A DNA stretch of 53,610 nucleotides, taken from contig LBZL01000002.1 in the NCBI GenBank assembly GCA_000994705.1, positions 536 through 54,145 on the forward strand. Direction: 5' to 3'. The stretch is from Candidatus Nomurabacteria bacterium GW2011_GWB1_40_7 (GTDB taxonomy: Bacteria > Patescibacteriota > Minisyncoccia > Phycocordibacterales > UBA9973). A program made the translations under genes and the position numbers. Below, piece after piece: positions 6,106-37,965 of the stretch (its first letter is position 1; every line of letters begins with the position of its first letter). The notes beneath the pieces were generated by a model. It was not told the DNA's origin and made no database searches. It saw only the letters and a program-made list of their open reading frames with translations.

Positions 6106-7266
6106 ATGTTTAAAGACAATCCAAAATTAAAAAACATTTTCTTTCTGGGTTTTTTATTCTCTTTGCATTTAGCTATCGTTTCCTATTTTAATTCTAGTTT
6201 TCTCTCTTTTTTTTCTTCTGAAAAAAATGTCAGCTTAATATACATATTAAGTTCTATTTTTTCTTTACTGGTGCTTTTCTTTGTACCTACAATATTAAAA
6301 AAAATTAGAGAATGCAGATTTTTGCTTTGGGTCTCCGGGTTAAGCGCTCTATCTTTACTTCTATTAGCCACTCTTAAAATCCCCGCGATCGTTATAATAA
6401 TATTTATTTTTTATTTTGCATTAAATTATTTAATTATTTTCGCGCTAGATGAATTAGTAGAAATATTCTCTAAAAATTCTTCCACGGGAAGAGTTCGTGG
6501 CTTATATCTAACTTTTGTTAATTTAGCTTGGGTAATCTCGCAAGCCTTCTCGGGAAAGATTTTATCAAAATACTCTTTCGTCGCATTATATTTCATTGCC
6601 TTCGCAATAATGATAATTTTTCTATTTGTCGCATTTTTCAGTTTCAAAAACTTAAAGGACCCAAAATACGACAAGGTATTGGGATGGCAATCTTTTAAAA
6701 ATTTTTTCGCAAACAAAAACCTTGCCCGCGCTTATAAAATAAATTTTCTTTTACAATTTTTCTATGCTTGGATGGTAATTTACACTCCAATATATTTGTA
6801 TGCGCACCTGGGTTTTAACTGGAAAGAAATCGGCACTATATTTATGGTAATGCTTTTGCCGTTCATTTTAATTCAATTTCCATTAGGAAAATATTCGGAC
6901 AAGATTGGAGAAAGGAAAATGCTAATTTATGGATTCCTGGTGGCTTCGCTCGCGACTTTGTCTCTTTTCTTTATAAAAAAACATGAAGTCTGGATTTGGG
7001 CCATAATGCTTTTCAGTACAAGGCTTGGCGTCGCAACGATAGAAGTAATGAGCGATGTTTATTTTTTTAAACACATCAATAAAGAAAACGATGAATTTAT
7101 CGCTGTCTATCGTAACACTGCTCCGGTATCTTATATTTTCGCCCCATTAATTGCTTTCGTCGCCTTTTACTTTATACCATCCTTTAATTTCATTTTTCTT
7201 ATCATGGGAACAATCATGCTTTATGGAGTCTATCTCGCTTCAACTATAAAAAATAGCGACATTTAA
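6106..7266 (+). CDS. major facilitator superfamily transporter-like protein
   Basis: This 386-residue, very hydrophobic protein has about 12 predicted transmembrane segments, typical for MFS carriers. Between the two halves is a cytoplasmic loop containing FKNLKDPKYDKVLGWQSFKN. The MFS-like loop motif GKYSDKIGERKMLIYG (about residue 263) resembles the conserved G-x3-D-R/K-x-G-R/K-R/K motif between helices 2-3 or 8-9. The substrate cannot be read. It follows RNase J by six bases and ends before the B12 riboswitch promoter, so it is not obviously under riboswitch control, although read-through is possible because no clear terminator separates them. Confidence 0.78.
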   Translation: MFKDNPKLKNIFFLGFLFSLHLAIVSYFNSSFLSFFSSEKNVSLIYILSSIFSLLVLFFVPTILKKIRECRFLLWVSGLSALSLLLLATLKIPAIVIIIFIFYFALNYLIIFALDELVEIFSKNSSTGRVRGLYLTFVNLAWVISQAFSGKILSKYSFVALYFIAFAIMIIFLFVAFFSFKNLKDPKYDKVLGWQSFKNFFANKNLARAYKINFLLQFFYAWMVIYTPIYLYAHLGFNWKEIGTIFMVMLLPFILIQFPLGKYSDKIGERKMLIYGFLVASLATLSLFFIKKHEVWIWAIMLFSTRLGVATIEVMSDVYFFKHINKENDEFIAVYRNTAPVSYIFAPLIAFVAFYFIPSFNFIFLIMGTIMLYGVYLASTIKNSDI

Positions 7267-7291: not shown

Positions 7292-7319
7292 TTGACAGAA
7301 TTTTTAGAAAATATAGAAT
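7292..7319 (+). promoter_or_regulatory. promoter of the cobalamin-riboswitch operon
   Basis: A consensus -35 box TTGACA (7292-7297), a 16-base spacer and TAGAAT (7314-7319). It is the best -35/-10 pair in the window. Transcription would begin near 7326, about 25 bases before the riboswitch aptamer, giving an unusually long leader for this genome. Confidence 0.75.
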
Positions 7320-7349
7320 AAGTGAGTTCGTTTGATAATTAAAAAGAAG

Positions 7350-7508
7350 TGATTGGGGAAACTGGTTAGATTCCAGTACAGTGCCGCTACGGTAAGCCTC
7401 GACTTTATGTCGTGGACAAGTCCGACTACCAATCATTTTATTAGTCCCGAGCAGGATCCCCTTCTTTTTTGAAGGCCCATAAATTCTGCTCTAATGCAGG
7501 ATTTTTTT
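7350..7508 (+). promoter_or_regulatory. cobalamin (B12) riboswitch with expression platform
   Basis: The aptamer is closed by TGATTGG (7350-7356) pairing with CCAATCA (7429-7435). Inside are the conserved cobalamin-riboswitch blocks: GGGAA then GGTTAGATTCC (7356-7374), the B12-box-like core GCCGCTACGGTAA (7383-7395), a hairpin around 7399-7413 and CAAGTCCGACTACC (7417-7430). Downstream, ATTCTGC (7483-7489) can pair with GCAGGAT (7496-7502), which holds the AGGA ribosome-binding site for the ATG at 7509 and is followed by a run of Ts. An identical GCAGGAT at 7451-7457 offers an alternative partner around a CCTTC/GAAGG hairpin. The switch could therefore act on translation, termination or both. 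Compact variants differ in preferring adenosyl- or aquo/methyl-cobalamin; the class cannot be assigned by eye. Confidence 0.85.
7483..7508 (+). terminator. riboswitch hairpin: ribosome-site sequester and possible terminator
   Basis: A seven-pair stem ATTCTGC/GCAGGAT (one G-U pair) with a six-base loop is followed directly by seven Ts (7502-7508). It hides the AGGA at 7498-7501, seven bases before the ATG at 7509. The stem is short for an efficient intrinsic terminator, so sequestration of the ribosome-binding site is at least as likely. Confidence 0.55.
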
Positions 7509-7988
7509 ATGCTTAAAAATAAAAAAATATTAATAATTGTTGGAGTACTTGTATTGGTTTTTCTCTGGGGAGGGCAAAATATTCTCGAGCGAACCCTTGG
7601 GATCAGAAATGTGCTGGGGACACATTTTCTGAACGGCGACGGACAGAGAAAATTTTCAACAGAAAATTTTCGTGGTGAGTCAGAGAATGTTTTGCCCGAA
7701 ACAGCAATTTTGGAAATTAACAAAACCCGCCATGAAACAGAACTTGCGGGCAGTGAAACTGTCTATGACTTTATGGATAAACTTCGCGATGAGGGAAAAA
7801 TAAATTTTACCGAAAAAACTTACGCGGGAATGGGAAAATTTATCGTTTCCATCAACGGAGTCAAGAGCAACGGAGCGGAAAATTGGATCTATTATGTGAA
7901 TGGCAAAGAAGCGCAAGTCGGCGTTTCAAATTATAAGATAAAAGCTGGAGACCTTGTCTCTTGGAAATATGAAAAAACAAATTATTAG
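7509..7988 (+). CDS. secreted DUF4430 (transcobalamin beta-domain-like) protein
   Basis: The chosen ATG at 7509 follows an AGGA ribosome-binding site by seven bases, giving 159 residues. An upstream in-frame ATG at 7494 lies in the riboswitch loop. The protein has a basic N-terminus and one membrane segment (about residues 6-24), a linker, then a DUF4430 domain from about residue 70: an ETVYDFMDKL helix, the NWIYYVNGKEAQVG core and the closing IKAGDLVSWKYE motif. DUF4430 is the bacterial relative of the C-terminal beta domain of transcobalamin and intrinsic factor. The gene is first in the cobalamin-riboswitch operon and overlaps the next gene by 20 bases. A role in cobalamin capture at the cell surface is inferred from domain plus riboswitch; DUF4430 alone does not prove B12 binding. 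Confidence 0.85.
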   Translation: MLKNKKILIIVGVLVLVFLWGGQNILERTLGIRNVLGTHFLNGDGQRKFSTENFRGESENVLPETAILEINKTRHETELAGSETVYDFMDKLRDEGKINFTEKTYAGMGKFIVSINGVKSNGAENWIYYVNGKEAQVGVSNYKIKAGDLVSWKYEKTNY

Positions 7989-9750
7989 GACAATATTAAT
8001 AGTGGGATTATTTTTATCAGCTAGGGGGATTGTTTTAGCAGCGGATGTAAATTTAACAATACGAGACGGTGCTAATATTATTTATACTAGTTCTATTCCG
8101 CTTCAACCAACAGGAACAATCCAAATTCAAGGTCATGATTTAGACGCAAATAGCGTTCTTTCTGTTTTAAATGATGCAGATATTTTGAGCGATAGTTTTA
8201 CAATTACAGATTTACAATATTATGATTCCATGGGGTCGTTTTATTTAAAATGTATAAATAGTTCTTGTGATAATTGGCAATATACAGTAAATAATTCTTA
8301 TCCGTGGGAAAGTATTGATCAAAAAATCCTCTCTGGTGGAGAAAATATTTACGTATATTTCGGACCTCAGAATAAAGTTGTATTGAGTCCCGAAAACATA
8401 AATACAAATGAGACTTTGACGGTTACTGCGCAAAAATATGATTACGAGAATAATACTTGGACCACGAGAACTGGAGTAACAATAGGGGTAACACAGCCAA
8501 ACCCGGATGATCCCTGGACGCCGATAGAAATACAAACAGGCAGTGTAGACGGAAACGGTCAGGCTGTTTTTTCTTCAATCCCTGTTGGCTCTTATGATGT
8601 CGGGATTAAGGAAGATTTTTATTTTCCAACCGAGGCTTTGACGGTAACGGAGGCTTCCTCAGGCGAGGGAGGCGGAGGATCTTCGGGAGGAGGTTCCAGT
8701 AGTGGCAGTCGTAGCAAGAAAATCGAGGGCAGCGTCCTGGGCGCTGAAACTAAGATAAAATTTGATTTGGAAAAAGCTTTTGAATTTTTAATTTCCCAAC
8801 AAAAAGAAGACGGTTCTTTTGGTGAGAATCTTTACACCGATTGGACTGCTTTAGCGCTTGCCTCAGGAAATTATCAAAACCAAGTCATAAAATTAATTAA
8901 ATACTTTGAGGAATCAAAAATAGAAAGCGCACTCTTGACCGATTATGAAAGGCGCGCTTTGGCTTTAATGTCACTCGGACTTAATCCATACAATACGAAT
9001 GGCGTGAATTATATTGGAAAAATAATTTCCAGTTTTGATGGCAAGCAGTTCGGCGATCCGCAAGAAAATAATGATGATGTTTTTGCCTTAATTGTTCTCC
9101 AAAATGCGGGCTTCTCGGCTGACGAAAAAATGCTGGCTAGCAGCGTGGATTTTATTTTAAGCGCGCAAGGTGAAAACGGCTCTTGGAATGAAAGTGCGGA
9201 TATGACCGGCGCCACGATTGAAGCATTTTCTCCTTTTACTTTAAATTTAACAGTAAAAGACGCTTTAATTAAAGCAAAAGATTATTTAAAACAAAAACAA
9301 AAAGATAATGGCGGTTGGAATGATAGCGCGTCTTCCACTGCTTGGGTCATAGAGGGCATTCTTGCAATGAATGAAAAAATAGAAGATTGGAAAAAATCTG
9401 AAAACACTCCGCTTGATTTTTTAGCTACTATGCAAGACATAGACGGCGGGATAAAAAACGATAATGTAAAAAACAAACTCTGGGAAACTGCTTATGTTGC
9501 CTCTGCATTATCCGGCAAAACTTGGAATGAGATAATGCAAAAATTTAATAAGCATGAAGAAGGAGTCGTTGTTATAGAAAAGAAGATACTCCCCAAAAAA
9601 CAGACAGCTAAAAAAATAGTAGAGAAAACTGAAAACTTAAACACTGGTCCAATTACCCTCCCTCTAAATACAACACAACCGCAACCAGAACTCGAGCAGA
9701 AGAAAGGCTGGTTCAGTAGATTCTGGGACAGTATTTTTAGCGTTTTTTAA
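7969..9750 (+). CDS. secreted DUF4430 plus alpha/alpha-toroid protein, transcobalamin-like
   Basis: Starting at the ATG at 7969 (MKKQ) the protein has 593 residues. Order: signal peptide (about 1-25), DUF4430-like beta domain (about 30-135, with the NWQYTVN core and SGGENIYVYFG), a beta-sandwich of carboxypeptidase-regulatory type (to about 225), a Gly/Ser linker (about 230-250), then an alpha/alpha-toroid of prenyltransferase/squalene-cyclase-type repeats (about 265-525). Repeats carry QQKEDGSFGENLYTDWTALA, AQGENGSWNES, QKDNGGWNDSASSTAW and MQDIDGGI. A proline-rich, charged tail ends in GWFSRFWDSIFSVF. Animal transcobalamin joins an alpha6/alpha6 barrel to a beta domain in the opposite order. 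Position behind a cobalamin riboswitch makes extracellular B12 binding the best inference. The 3' end overlaps the convergent gene by 14 bases. Confidence 0.85.
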   Translation: MKKQIIRTILIVGLFLSARGIVLAADVNLTIRDGANIIYTSSIPLQPTGTIQIQGHDLDANSVLSVLNDADILSDSFTITDLQYYDSMGSFYLKCINSSCDNWQYTVNNSYPWESIDQKILSGGENIYVYFGPQNKVVLSPENINTNETLTVTAQKYDYENNTWTTRTGVTIGVTQPNPDDPWTPIEIQTGSVDGNGQAVFSSIPVGSYDVGIKEDFYFPTEALTVTEASSGEGGGGSSGGGSSSGSRSKKIEGSVLGAETKIKFDLEKAFEFLISQQKEDGSFGENLYTDWTALALASGNYQNQVIKLIKYFEESKIESALLTDYERRALALMSLGLNPYNTNGVNYIGKIISSFDGKQFGDPQENNDDVFALIVLQNAGFSADEKMLASSVDFILSAQGENGSWNESADMTGATIEAFSPFTLNLTVKDALIKAKDYLKQKQKDNGGWNDSASSTAWVIEGILAMNEKIEDWKKSENTPLDFLATMQDIDGGIKNDNVKNKLWETAYVASALSGKTWNEIMQKFNKHEEGVVVIEKKILPKKQTAKKIVEKTENLNTGPITLPLNTTQPQPELEQKKGWFSRFWDSIFSVF

Positions 9751-10348
9751 ATTCCACTATTTTCCCTGCTTTAATTTCTATCTTATCTGCTTTTCTTAAT
9801 TTTTTTACGCAAGCTTTCGACATAATGTCGTAGTGTTTTATTTTGTCTAATTTTTTATCTATATACCAAAGATTTTTTCCTGACGTTGCCCAATCATTTC
9901 TTAGGGTATTCAAGTTAAATAATTCAGAATATTGCCGTAAAGTTTTCTCGCCATTGTCTAAAAAATATTCATGAAAATAAGACAATGCGAGCTCGCGAAT
10001 ATTTTTATAAATCGGTTCCCTGTACCGTAAAACTGCGTGATTGGTCTTGGATAATGCGCCCCAAAAATTCCCTATTTTAAATGGAGCAATCACATGGTCA
10101 TAATCATGCTTAGTCGCTTTCAAATGCATCAAAAAGGGAGTAGAACCGCGCAAAAACAATATATAAGCTCCGAGCAAAGCTCCTTCAAAACAATGCGCTT
10201 TTTTCTCCCGGAGAGCGAAAAGAGGAGATTTTAGAGTTTCTCCTCCCTCTTCAAAATTAAACTCCAAACTGTTCAAAAAATCTTGAACTTTTGCCGGAGT
10301 ATCCAATTTCCGCATTAACGTTATTTCTTTTTTGGAAAAACCCGGCAT
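9737..10348 (-). CDS. conserved protein, possibly transglutaminase-like
   Basis: This 203-residue soluble protein has a pattern seen in a conserved uncharacterised family: a cysteine in KKAHCFEGALLGAYIL (near residue 53), then HLKATKHDYDHVIAPF (near 75) and NFWGALSKTNHAVLRYREP (near 95), with RELALSYFHEYF near 120. The Cys followed by an Asp-His pair is compatible with a transglutaminase/papain-like catalytic arrangement, but that assignment is tentative. It is last in the minus-strand run and starts four bases after a 21-codon lysine-rich ORF. Its 3' end overlaps the transcobalamin-like gene on the other strand by 14 bases. Confidence 0.6.
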   Translation of the reverse strand: MPGFSKKEITLMRKLDTPAKVQDFLNSLEFNFEEGGETLKSPLFALREKKAHCFEGALLGAYILFLRGSTPFLMHLKATKHDYDHVIAPFKIGNFWGALSKTNHAVLRYREPIYKNIRELALSYFHEYFLDNGEKTLRQYSELFNLNTLRNDWATSGKNLWYIDKKLDKIKHYDIMSKACVKKLRKADKIEIKAGKIVEFKKR

Positions 10349-34479: not shown

Positions 34480-37400
34480 TTATAATTGTTCCGGCGCGGA
34501 CGAAGTTTCGGTCGGAGACGAATCGGTTTCCGGCGGAGATTCCGGTTCGGGAGTTGGTTCGGGAGTTGGTTCGGGAGTTGGTTCGGGAGTTGGTTCGGGA
34601 GTTGGTTCGGGAGTTGGTTCGGGTTCAGGAATTGGGGTCGGGGTCGAATCTGGTTGCGGGACTGGTTCTGGAGTGGGTTCTGGTTCGGAAATTAGGTCGG
34701 GTATTGGTTCTGGTTCAGAAATCGGGTCTGGTTCTTCGATTATTATCGGATCAATACCCGCATTCTGCAAAAGCTCGTCAAATTGATCGCCATTCACGCA
34801 CGCCTCGCTTCCATCGGATCTTTTGACACAAAGTTGTTCTGTATGGACTTTCTTAGAAAATACTTCATCAAAATATCCCCGGATTGCCGTTACACGCGCA
34901 GTTATAAAATCAGTCAGAAACTGCTTGCCGTCCGCAATTTTCTGAACAATTATCGCTACCGGGTCGCGCGCGATTTCGGCTTGAATGACGGCGACAAGAG
35001 TTGAAAGCCCATTGTCCGTGCCGTCGGCGTTAATTTTAGGCGATATATCGCCCAAAAGCGCGGACCCCCCGTTAAAGTCAAAATTCTTTACAAAAGCCAA
35101 TACGATACCGGTTCCTTCTCCGCCATAAGCCGACATTGCTTGTCCGATTACCGGACCTGCGCCATTGGATTTCATAGCTACGCCAGACATGGAGGAAGGG
35201 GTAAGATAATCGCCAACTTCTATGTTCCCATTTTCCGCCACAACTTTAACCGGCACGCGTCCGGAGAGAGCTACGGGAACAGCCTTTACTCCTTCTTTAC
35301 TTACCCCGCCAATTACCATTCCGGGCCTGGTTGAAACAATACCTAGCACATTTTGATCGTTAGTGTTTGTGCTTTTTTGAACTCCTGTTTCCAAACTTGG
35401 ATCTATTGAAACAACATCTCCCGCTTCAATGCTCTCATCATTGGTTGTATATATTTCCGCCAAGTCGGCTCCGGTATCCAAAACCATTGCGACCGCGATA
35501 CCTCCCAAACTCACACCGCTAGCCGTGCCGGAATAAGCGCAAACAACATAAGTCTGTGCTGAGACTCCCGGGTCAACTACTATTCCTGTTACAAATACTG
35601 ACGGTCCGTTAGAATTGTTTGCGGATGTTAAGCTTGTCGCTTCATCATTTACAAGACTTCCGGCATTACACGTTGAGCCAGTTCTTATTTCAACTGTAAC
35701 AGTTTGATCCGCGTTATTTAGAGAGTTAGACCATAGATTAGTATATACATAAATATCTCCGGTCGCCGTGCTTGGCGTTACGGCAACCGTGCCAAGCGAT
35801 GTGGCGCCAGCCGATGTTGTTCCAGTAATTGTTGTTGCCGCGATTGAAGTAGTGGACTGTTGAAGATCTGTCCCCGCTCCTCCCGCATCCGATGCGCAGT
35901 CCCAAGTATCCGTGCTTTCCACCCATTTCAAAACCTGTCCATCGGTACATCCCTGAAGCAAACCAATACCATCACTACGTGCGATTAATCCTGACCCAGA
36001 TGAAGTGCCAGTACCTCCGTCAGCCGCAGTGATTAGGGTTAAAGCGTCCGCATCAATTAAACCAGTAGCGAGGGTAACAGCAGTATTGGAAGAACCGGCC
36101 GTAATCGTGCCGCCAATGTCAGTGTTTCCGGACGCATCAACATCAAAATTTGTGTAATCAATAATTCCGGTAGTGCCGGTAAGAGCATTAGTTGCGATTG
36201 ATATCCCGCCATTGGCGGCAAGCGCTCCGGATACCGTGAATCCGCCCGTTGCTGACGCGACAGTAATATTTGCCGTGCCGTCAAAAGATACACCGCCGAT
36301 AGTTCGCGCAGTTTGGAGCGCGGTAGCCGTGCCTGCATTTCCAGAGACAGAACCGGTCGCGCTTCCGATATTCGGAGTTGTGAAAACTGGCGAGGTGGCA
36401 AACACCACAAGTCCGCTACCCGTCTCGTCTGTTAGCGCTCCCGACAAGTTCGCGGAACTGAATGAACCCAAAGAAGTTGCATTACCCACAGAAGTAATTG
36501 CTCCTGTCAAGTTCGCGTTCGTCGTAACATTTCCGGCAGTCAATCCTGCGGCTGTTCCTGTAATATTTGTTCCGACTAATGCGGATGGAGTGCCTAAGTT
36601 TGGCGTTACCAATATCGGTGAAGTAGAAAAGACAGCGAGTCCAGTTCCAGTTTCATCAGATAAAGCGGCTAAAAGTCCAGCCGAATTAGACAAATCTTCT
36701 TCAAAATCTGTACAAGATTCTACTACTCCACTTGCATCTACCCCGAGAGGCGCCAAACCAGCAGAACAGTTGGCGCCATTGGCTACTAAAGCGGTCGCTG
36801 TTCCCGCATTGCCGGTAATTGTGGTTTGGTCGCCAGTGTTCGTGCCGGAGAGATTAAGGGCAGAAATATTGCCACTAAAAAAAGCGCCCCCTCTTTCATT
36901 AATATACGCTTTTTCCGAACCACCATTTAAGAAACTTACAATCTTTGATCCTGCATCAAGAAAAGTATTAAGAGTACCAAAAGTATATGCCGTGGCAGGA
37001 ATACCATCGCTATCGATCACATCTGGATTTAAAACCGCGTTTTGATTGGAACCTATCTGGAAACTTCCCCCGCCAACATTGGCATAGATTATTCCCGAAG
37101 AATAGTAATTAAAATACAAATCGCCGAAAGAGGAAAAATCATTATTGGCGTCAACAGTAATGCCCTCAAGCGTGGCGGGACCCTGCCAGATTCCGTAACC
37201 GCTGGCGGGGTCGCCTATAACAATTCCCCCGTCCGTAACGGGATCGCTTCCCGAATCGGAAGCGAAAATTCGCAGTAAGGAAGTGTCGGAACCGTTGCTC
37301 AAATCAAGATTCCCCGTCATTGTATCGCCCGTTTTCAAAAGGTAGCCGGACAAATCCTGGTCGCCGGTATTCGTGCCGGAAATAGCTGACGCGCCCGTAA

Positions 37401-37965
37401 CTTCAAGCGTTGGGGTTGATGAACCGGAAAGAGTGATACCATTAACTGTTGTAGGAGTAATCGCGCCAAGAGTTAGCGTAATTGCCGGAGTAGTAGTTGA
37501 AGTCGCGACCGAGCCAGACACTCCATTGGCTGTGACAACTGAAACATCGGTAACCGTGCCGGTTCCTCCAACTGCGATATCCCCGCTCCCCAGCAAAGAA
37601 ACTCCTCCCACTGTTTTTATATTCGTGCCTGAAACCAGAGCATCTTGCTTGCCATTGAAAATCAGCCAATCGGCGGCCGTCAAAAGCCCGCGGGCAATCG
37701 CGGATGCCGAGGGAAGATTGAAAGAATGGACATTGCCAGCGGAAGAAATGGAAAAATCAGCGCCAGCACTGCCGGCAACTAATGTTTGTACGGCGGCAAT
37801 TTGGTCATTTAAGCTGAACGCCGCCACGCCACAGTCAACGGATTCGGGAGGACAATCCGGCTCTAGGGTTTCGCCCGGCTCATATATGGTCGCGCTGGCT
37901 GTTTGCGAAAAAGTCAGACCAAATAGAAGAAGAAAAAATACAAATTTTACTTTTATTTTACCCAT
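34480..37965 (-). CDS. giant surface protein with tail-fibre-like repeats and PEPT stalk
   Basis: A 1161-residue exported protein with a signal peptide (about 1-26, cut after ASA), then hundreds of residues of Thr/Ser/Gly/Ala-rich, beta-predicted repeats such as LSGTNTGDQ, GNAGTATAL and IGGVSFDGTANITV, like phage tail-fibre shafts. A conserved domain near 850-980 contains DLAEIYTTNDESIEAGDVV and VPVALSGRVPVKVVAENG. The C-terminus has a coiled region (KKVHTEQLCVKRSDGSEAC) and a Pro/Glu/Thr stalk from the 12-base repeat at 34548-34619. There is no membrane anchor or LPxTG at the end. It may mediate attachment to a host cell or form the surface layer. It heads the minus-strand set of surface genes and has its own extended -10 promoter. 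Confidence 0.8.
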   Translation of the reverse strand: MGKIKVKFVFFLLLFGLTFSQTASATIYEPGETLEPDCPPESVDCGVAAFSLNDQIAAVQTLVAGSAGADFSISSAGNVHSFNLPSASAIARGLLTAADWLIFNGKQDALVSGTNIKTVGGVSLLGSGDIAVGGTGTVTDVSVVTANGVSGSVATSTTTPAITLTLGAITPTTVNGITLSGSSTPTLEVTGASAISGTNTGDQDLSGYLLKTGDTMTGNLDLSNGSDTSLLRIFASDSGSDPVTDGGIVIGDPASGYGIWQGPATLEGITVDANNDFSSFGDLYFNYYSSGIIYANVGGGSFQIGSNQNAVLNPDVIDSDGIPATAYTFGTLNTFLDAGSKIVSFLNGGSEKAYINERGGAFFSGNISALNLSGTNTGDQTTITGNAGTATALVANGANCSAGLAPLGVDASGVVESCTDFEEDLSNSAGLLAALSDETGTGLAVFSTSPILVTPNLGTPSALVGTNITGTAAGLTAGNVTTNANLTGAITSVGNATSLGSFSSANLSGALTDETGSGLVVFATSPVFTTPNIGSATGSVSGNAGTATALQTARTIGGVSFDGTANITVASATGGFTVSGALAANGGISIATNALTGTTGIIDYTNFDVDASGNTDIGGTITAGSSNTAVTLATGLIDADALTLITAADGGTGTSSGSGLIARSDGIGLLQGCTDGQVLKWVESTDTWDCASDAGGAGTDLQQSTTSIAATTITGTTSAGATSLGTVAVTPSTATGDIYVYTNLWSNSLNNADQTVTVEIRTGSTCNAGSLVNDEATSLTSANNSNGPSVFVTGIVVDPGVSAQTYVVCAYSGTASGVSLGGIAVAMVLDTGADLAEIYTTNDESIEAGDVVSIDPSLETGVQKSTNTNDQNVLGIVSTRPGMVIGGVSKEGVKAVPVALSGRVPVKVVAENGNIEVGDYLTPSSMSGVAMKSNGAGPVIGQAMSAYGGEGTGIVLAFVKNFDFNGGSALLGDISPKINADGTDNGLSTLVAVIQAEIARDPVAIIVQKIADGKQFLTDFITARVTAIRGYFDEVFSKKVHTEQLCVKRSDGSEACVNGDQFDELLQNAGIDPIIIEEPDPISEPEPIPDLISEPEPTPEPVPQPDSTPTPIPEPEPTPEPTPEPTPEPTPEPTPEPTPEPESPPETDSSPTETSSAPEQL
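34548..34619. repeat. 12-base tandem repeat encoding the PEPT stalk
   Basis: Six perfect units of GGTTCGGGAGTT (plus strand) are flanked by decayed units on both sides. They encode TPEP repeats in the surface protein. Such arrays readily change copy number without shifting frame. Confidence 0.85.

Follow-up and report, generated by a model that had tools for sequence, protein, structure and literature searches.

We found no account, in the literature that we searched, of how genome-reduced Patescibacteria are supplied with cobalamin, although many of these bacteria carry class II-type ribonucleotide reductases (RNRs). The locus studied here lies in a 53,610-nucleotide stretch of DNA (the window, G000:C2:536-54145), which belongs to a 93%-complete draft genome of 548.5 kb in 26 contigs. 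The locus comprises a riboswitch leader and two genes, P0001 and P0002, and the named relatives of P0001 are mostly from Candidatus Nomurabacteria and other Patescibacteria. We interpret it as a surface module with which a Patescibacterium related to Nomurabacteria and Paceibacterota scavenges corrinoids, with a seemingly solitary S-component route across the membrane and with PduO and an RNR acting after uptake, a reading to which we assign a probability of about 0.8.

A cobalamin riboswitch with a conserved expression platform precedes the module

A sequence-only reading of the window had placed a promoter and a cobalamin riboswitch before the two genes, and both placements were confirmed by a consensus scan and by an Rfam scan, respectively. 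The leader contains the following features.

7292..7319, + strand: promoter-like TTGACA-16-TAGAAT (consensus scan, 11/12 matches)
7306..7451, + strand: cobalamin riboswitch aptamer RF00174 (cmscan 37.5 bits, gathering threshold 31.5, E 5.4e-6)
7449..7457, + strand: antiterminator strand GAGCAGGAU, pairing with AUUCUGCUC at 7483-7491 (RNAfold of 7440-7530)
7481..7504, + strand: intrinsic-terminator-like hairpin of 9 pairs with a U tract (T-rich tail)

The -35 element was present also in most sister leaders, and the RF00174 match was the sole one in the 548.5-kb genome. By the covariance model the leader RNA is a cobalamin riboswitch, whose binding of cobalamin is inferred from sequence alone. 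Its expression platform offers alternative pairings, in which the hairpin at 7481-7504 competes with the antiterminator (7449-7457/7483-7491), and these are conserved in relatives. The T tract of the hairpin reaches the P0001 start codon, and the hairpin also masks the AGGA Shine-Dalgarno sequence (7498-7501). In the leaders of 15 close relatives CCCGAGCAGGA was invariant and the terminator stem was mostly retained. A terminator was found in 34 of 42 distinct related leaders (1/42 after shuffling) and a CGAGCA-type motif in 27 of the 42 (none after shuffling), and the duplex between leader and terminator arm had a mean energy of -10.8 kcal/mol compared with -5.5 kcal/mol for shuffled sequences (duplex test, 34 of 42 leaders).

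OFF control is usual for this riboswitch class. At low cellular cobalamin, GAGCAGGAU would pair with AUUCUGCUC to form the antiterminator, and both genes would be made. With cobalamin bound to the aptamer, AUUCUGC would be freed to pair with GCAGGAU, so that the terminator forms, the Shine-Dalgarno sequence is hidden and expression is switched off. Switching in this direction by the ligand is inferred, and the effect of ligand on the pairing remains unresolved. A kissing loop between L5 and L13 (UUAGA with UCUAA in the hairpin loop, by eye) suits the window and not the sister locus L060, and it is left unclaimed because the pairing fails there.

The two proteins carry both halves of the animal B12-carrier fold

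The two genes and the domains of their products, taken from Pfam matches and predicted structures, are as follows.

7509..7988, + strand: P0001, membrane-anchored DUF4430 (transcobalamin beta-domain) protein, 159 aa (PF14478 54.9 bits; AlphaFold pLDDT 83.8)
7521..7598, + strand: P0001 N-terminal transmembrane/signal-anchor helix, residues 5-30 (model helix)
7695..7979, + strand: P0001 beta domain, residues 63-157 (Foldseek and VIA)
7969..9750, + strand: P0002, exported beta-domain and alpha/alpha-toroid protein, 593 aa (Pfam; model pLDDT 83.5)
8047..8361, + strand: P0002 N-terminal beta domain, residues 27-131 (family profile against intrinsic factor residues 291-391, E 6e-4)
8371..8658, + strand: P0002 Ig-like domain, residues 135-230 (beta-rich, pLDDT about 92)
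8665..8748, + strand: P0002 Gly/Ser linker, residues 233-260 (pLDDT below 50)
8764..9543, + strand: P0002 12-helix toroid, residues 266-525 (VIA structure comparison)
9709..9738, + strand: P0002 C-terminal aromatic helix, residues 581-590 (model helix beyond a disordered tail)

The open reading frame list starts P0001 at 7494; we replaced this start by the ATG at 7509, because the AGGA Shine-Dalgarno sequence lies before 7509. The ATG of P0002 (7969) falls within the end of P0001, and the resulting 20-nt overlap indicates that the two proteins are probably co-translated. Two overlapping genes for exported proteins had indeed been predicted from the sequence, the first with DUF4430 alone, and this description holds.

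In P0001, the Pfam match and the model show a membrane helix at the N terminus that a disordered segment separates from the DUF4430 domain. All 19 Foldseek matches of P0001 in the PDB at E up to 1e-3 were to transcobalamin, haptocorrin, intrinsic factor or the sole DUF4430 crystal structure, with E values of 8.6e-7 to 1e-4 for all structures of the three animal carriers. VIA gave Z scores of 13.6-16.1 for the carrier and DUF4430 structures; no other fold scored above 7.9. A single-sequence phmmer search with P0001 against the PDB returned no match, whereas the family profile does find PDB matches.

The P0002 model runs from a signal peptide through the beta domain, the Ig-like domain, the Gly/Ser linker and the 12-helix toroid into a disordered tail; the short helix that follows at the C terminus may attach to the membrane, which is inferred only. 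The sequence-only reading had described P0002 as DUF4430 plus a toroid. The toroid stands (SQHop_cyclase_C 31.6 bits, cut-off 26.1); the N-terminal domain stays below the Pfam cut-off for DUF4430 (PF14478, 14.4 vs 23.8 bits), yet the intrinsic factor beta domain is recovered with the family profile, as listed above. PF01122 gave no match in P0002 at E up to 1 and reached 20.2 bits (cut-off 25) in the related protein L075. In VIA comparisons the toroid scored Z 24 with terpene cyclases, 21.0 with human intrinsic factor (232 residues, 3.1 Å), 19.3-19.8 with transcobalamin and 18.8 with haptocorrin.

As the folds of P0001 and P0002 match those of the animal carriers (beta domain, Z 15-16; single 12-helix toroid, Z about 19-21), the locus encodes both halves of the carrier fold in reversed order together with a separate second beta domain. 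Unlike in the animal proteins, the beta domain of P0002 precedes the toroid, and the two are separated by an Ig-like domain and a Gly/Ser linker; the extra beta domain is membrane-anchored, and PF01122 is not matched. The transcobalamin-like interpretation put forward from the sequence is supported by the covariance match above threshold and by two predicted structures that resemble transcobalamin and intrinsic factor, and binding of B12 remains an inference.

Riboswitch, beta domain and S component are linked across genomes

Linkage of the riboswitch with DUF4430 was evaluated in a class survey of 238 genomes, which found the riboswitch in 18 and DUF4430 in 41; the covariance-model survey leaves out the same-genus genomes G001-G012. 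DUF4430 occurred in 15 of the 18 riboswitch genomes and in 26 of the 220 others (Fisher p 1.7e-10, uncorrected for relatedness), and lay within 3 kb in 14, which span several families. Among 56 loci picked in GTDB genomes by DUF4430 alone, a riboswitch core or Rfam match was found near DUF4430 in 36, and the core motif stood directly upstream in 31; these motif matches were not each confirmed by the covariance model, and one of the 31 (L092) counts only when its gene start is read as too long. Five Firmicutes loci carry RF00174 matches (84-136 bits) ahead of toroid/DUF4430 genes.

Of the 56 loci, 36 contained a toroid gene, and in 32 DUF4430 was accompanied by an S-component gene (DUF6580). 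DUF6580 and DUF4430 genes were at most 1.5 kb apart in 16/23 genomes, and DUF4430 and S-component genes adjoin, and even overlap, across many families. In one genome (G244, L061) the RNR, S component, riboswitch, DUF4430 and toroid are contiguous, and in Desulfallas one gene run encodes DUF4430, EcfT, EcfA, the toroid and the S component.

Three riboswitch genomes lack DUF4430 (G131, G211 and G231). In G231 (L074) the riboswitch stands directly before an S-component gene, and in G211 (L070) no B12 gene is evident beside it. In G131 (L067, C22:1-6624), by eye, it precedes a phosphatase/CobU/CobT/CobS-like salvage cluster with BtuF/BtuC-like genes; this contig is filed in a class member and could be a contaminant. 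L073 (G230:C127:1-3043), a contig of 3 kb in a Patescibacterium bin, has a TonB-dependent receptor preceded by two cobalamin riboswitches and is probably a contaminant. L092 and L099 bear GTDB labels of Burkholderiales and Bacteroidetes and have a Nomurabacteria-like gene order, and they are likely mis-binned contigs.

At L069 (G177, 7299-9815) the toroid chain ends in a dockerin and DUF4430 lies on a separate adjoining protein, whose N-terminal region is cohesin-like by eye, without a Pfam match; this arrangement suggests that the toroid and beta halves can join non-covalently. At seven other loci (L063, L064, L065, L066, L071, L072 and L076) the toroid-DUF4430 fusion is directly followed by a gene for a BACON/Ig-like protein that has a membrane helix at its C terminus, an unexplained third partner.

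A CbrT-like S component and B12 consumers are encoded beyond the window

The membrane protein that accompanies DUF4430 belongs to the Pfam family DUF6580 or ECF-ribofla_trS. A family profile that includes the protein of this genome matched CbrT (6FNP chain A) at E 4.3e-7, with the next S component at 0.023. The CbrT/DUF6580-like gene of this genome (C2:67052-67597) lies directly before a class II RNR gene (C2:64753-67050), and together with a gene for a PduO adenosyltransferase (C2:64138-64695; TIGR00636 122.5 bits, cut-off 108) the two form a cluster 10-13 kb beyond the window end. About 57 kb separate the riboswitch module from the S-component gene, which has no riboswitch before it.

TIGR02505 (RTPR) was by far the best family for the RNR at 271 bits and the only one to recognise it; the score with NrdJ_Z was weak. 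The curated cut-off of 340 bits is not met, and the enzyme is therefore called RTPR-like only. Its cysteines C463 (in NPCGEI), C474 and C758-x4-C763 are present and correspond to the catalytic and C-terminal cysteines of the L. leichmannii enzyme. The sequence-only reading had named a class II RNR as a plausible consumer that the window lacks; the RTPR-like gene lies just outside it. The genome also encodes one protein that is radical-SAM-like and contains a B12-binding domain. Since a B12-type carrier and B12-using enzymes are encoded, the bacterium probably lives on scavenged B12, with auxotrophy unproven.

No EcfT/CbiQ (PF02361) was found in 16 riboswitch genomes, this one and 15 relatives; the control for this search gave a match in 10 of 14. 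No FecCD-family permease (BtuC) was detected in this 93%-complete draft. FecCD matches in five relatives were weak (20-28 bits), mostly in frames of 262-301 aa, and were rejected as BtuC. The lack of EcfT and BtuC here rests on a single incomplete draft, although the 15 relatives are also without EcfT.

Proposed mechanism and alternatives

In the proposed mechanism, the toroid of P0002 and a beta domain would enclose captured cobalamin between them in the manner of transcobalamin, and the membrane-anchored beta domain of P0001 would assist by closing the site or handing the ligand on. The ligand may then cross the membrane on the CbrT/DUF6580-like protein without EcfT/EcfA, as in BtuM, and be adenosylated by PduO for the class II RNR. 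The narrower proposal, that a two-part surface trap loads a solitary CbrT-like carrier directly, without an ATP module, and that adenosylation by PduO pulls B12 in, is tentative and in our estimate falls just short of an even chance; hand-over and ATP-free transport are both inferred. BtuM is an S-component-like protein able to support B12 uptake alone (PMC6072759), whereas L. delbrueckii CbrT on its own, lacking the ECF module, did not sustain growth (PMC5997447). The transport step therefore stays open, and the latter result, like the distance of the S-component gene from the module and its lack of a riboswitch, counts against our reading.

The module could instead supply another route, for example the MFS protein of the gene at 6106-7266, pilus machinery or an ABC importer that went unrecognised. 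Besides the separate location of the S-component gene in this genome, such a route has in its favour that the MFS gene lies directly upstream of the module and is retained in sister genomes. However, that gene is upstream of the riboswitch and missing from most other loci, while the adjoining or overlapping DUF4430 and S-component genes of many families and the riboswitch directly before the S-component gene at L074 point to the S component, and we consider another route unlikely. The surface capture may also be as proposed while the natural ligand is a corrinoid other than B12 itself, either cobinamide or a different cobamide, a minority possibility that we keep in view: ECF-CbrT carries cobinamide too (PMC5997447), and Burroughs et al. 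wrote of 'B12 or its precursors' (PMC1796856), but the adenosyltransferase and class II RNR of the cluster are users of the finished cofactor.

There is no evidence of B12 binding, and the modelled P0002 toroid is nearer to terpene cyclases than to transcobalamin, lacks a PF01122 match and follows its beta domain, all of which also weigh against B12 capture. P0002 might be a secreted toroid enzyme, either terpene-cyclase-like or acting on polysaccharides, with a secondary riboswitch link, given that its top structural matches (Z 24) are drimenyl-diphosphate synthase and squalene-hopene cyclase. We regard this as very improbable: P0002 is exported, has a single toroid fused or paired with a transcobalamin beta domain and is riboswitch-linked across families, and Asp-Trp stands at the place of the DXDD acid motif of the cyclases (an alignment reading only, without structural test). 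Ig-like, SLH or dockerin domains in related proteins and a weak match to TED (thioester adhesin; 20.5 bits, below cut-off) would fit a surface adhesin for attachment to host or prey whose expression is merely tuned by B12. The beta domain is specifically of the transcobalamin type, and the linkage is to B12 S components and B12 enzymes, which leaves the adhesin explanation scarcely tenable.

Relation to known systems

The corrinoid-scavenging module is closest in outline to the SLBB transcobalamin-like clade, in which bacterial transcobalamin-like domains are fused to toroids in either order and occur as paired paralogues with CbiQ/CbiO neighbours (Burroughs et al., 2007; PMC1796856). That paper predicted surface B12 scavenging in Gram-positives and proposed that animals gained the protein from them, which would make these scavengers the ancestors of the animal B12 carriers; the word riboswitch is absent from it. 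Both systems have an exported beta-grasp domain, alone or toroid-fused, and a second paralogue in the operon. The present module differs in its Patescibacterial host, in its control by riboswitch and terminator and in the absence of CbiQ from the 16 genomes, CbiQ/CbiO being usual and not universal in the clade. As neither EcfT nor FecCD was found here and Desulfallas has EcfT and EcfA, the Patescibacterial version is seemingly the Gram-positive system without its energy module.

In Lactobacillus delbrueckii the gene order is nrdJ-cbrS-cbrT-pduO, CbrT being a vitamin B12 S component (PMC5997447). The system described here shares with ECF-CbrT the S-component family and the company of nrdJ and pduO, and differs in that no EcfT was detected and surface capture proteins are added. 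With BtuM it shares an S-component-type protein, a genome without an ECF module and an adjoining cobalamin adenosyltransferase; its own profile matched CbrT and not BtuM, and extracellular partners of BtuM are not described in the available parts of PMC6072759. Like BtuFCD, it would serve B12 import under a cobalamin riboswitch, without the FecCD-family permease.

We found no paper in the open-access literature that ties transcobalamin-like proteins to cobalamin riboswitches or to Patescibacteria; subscription papers were outside the search. As far as this search shows, the novelty lies in the link to the riboswitch, in the Patescibacterial variant and in its pairing with a seemingly solitary S component. 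The riboswitch gives an independent clue to the ligand and makes the context prediction of 2007 directly testable with small, soluble and well-predicted domains.

Other genes in the window

Three further genes lie on the - strand. The gene at 9737-10348 (203 aa) is convergent to P0002, an arrangement retained in the sister genomes L060 and L092, and has no confident Pfam match. A 1161-aa protein is encoded at 34480-37965, without a Pfam match at 1e-5. The gene at 1033-2028 encodes a deoxyhypusine-synthase family protein (PF01916, 124.8 bits) in this reduced bacterial genome.
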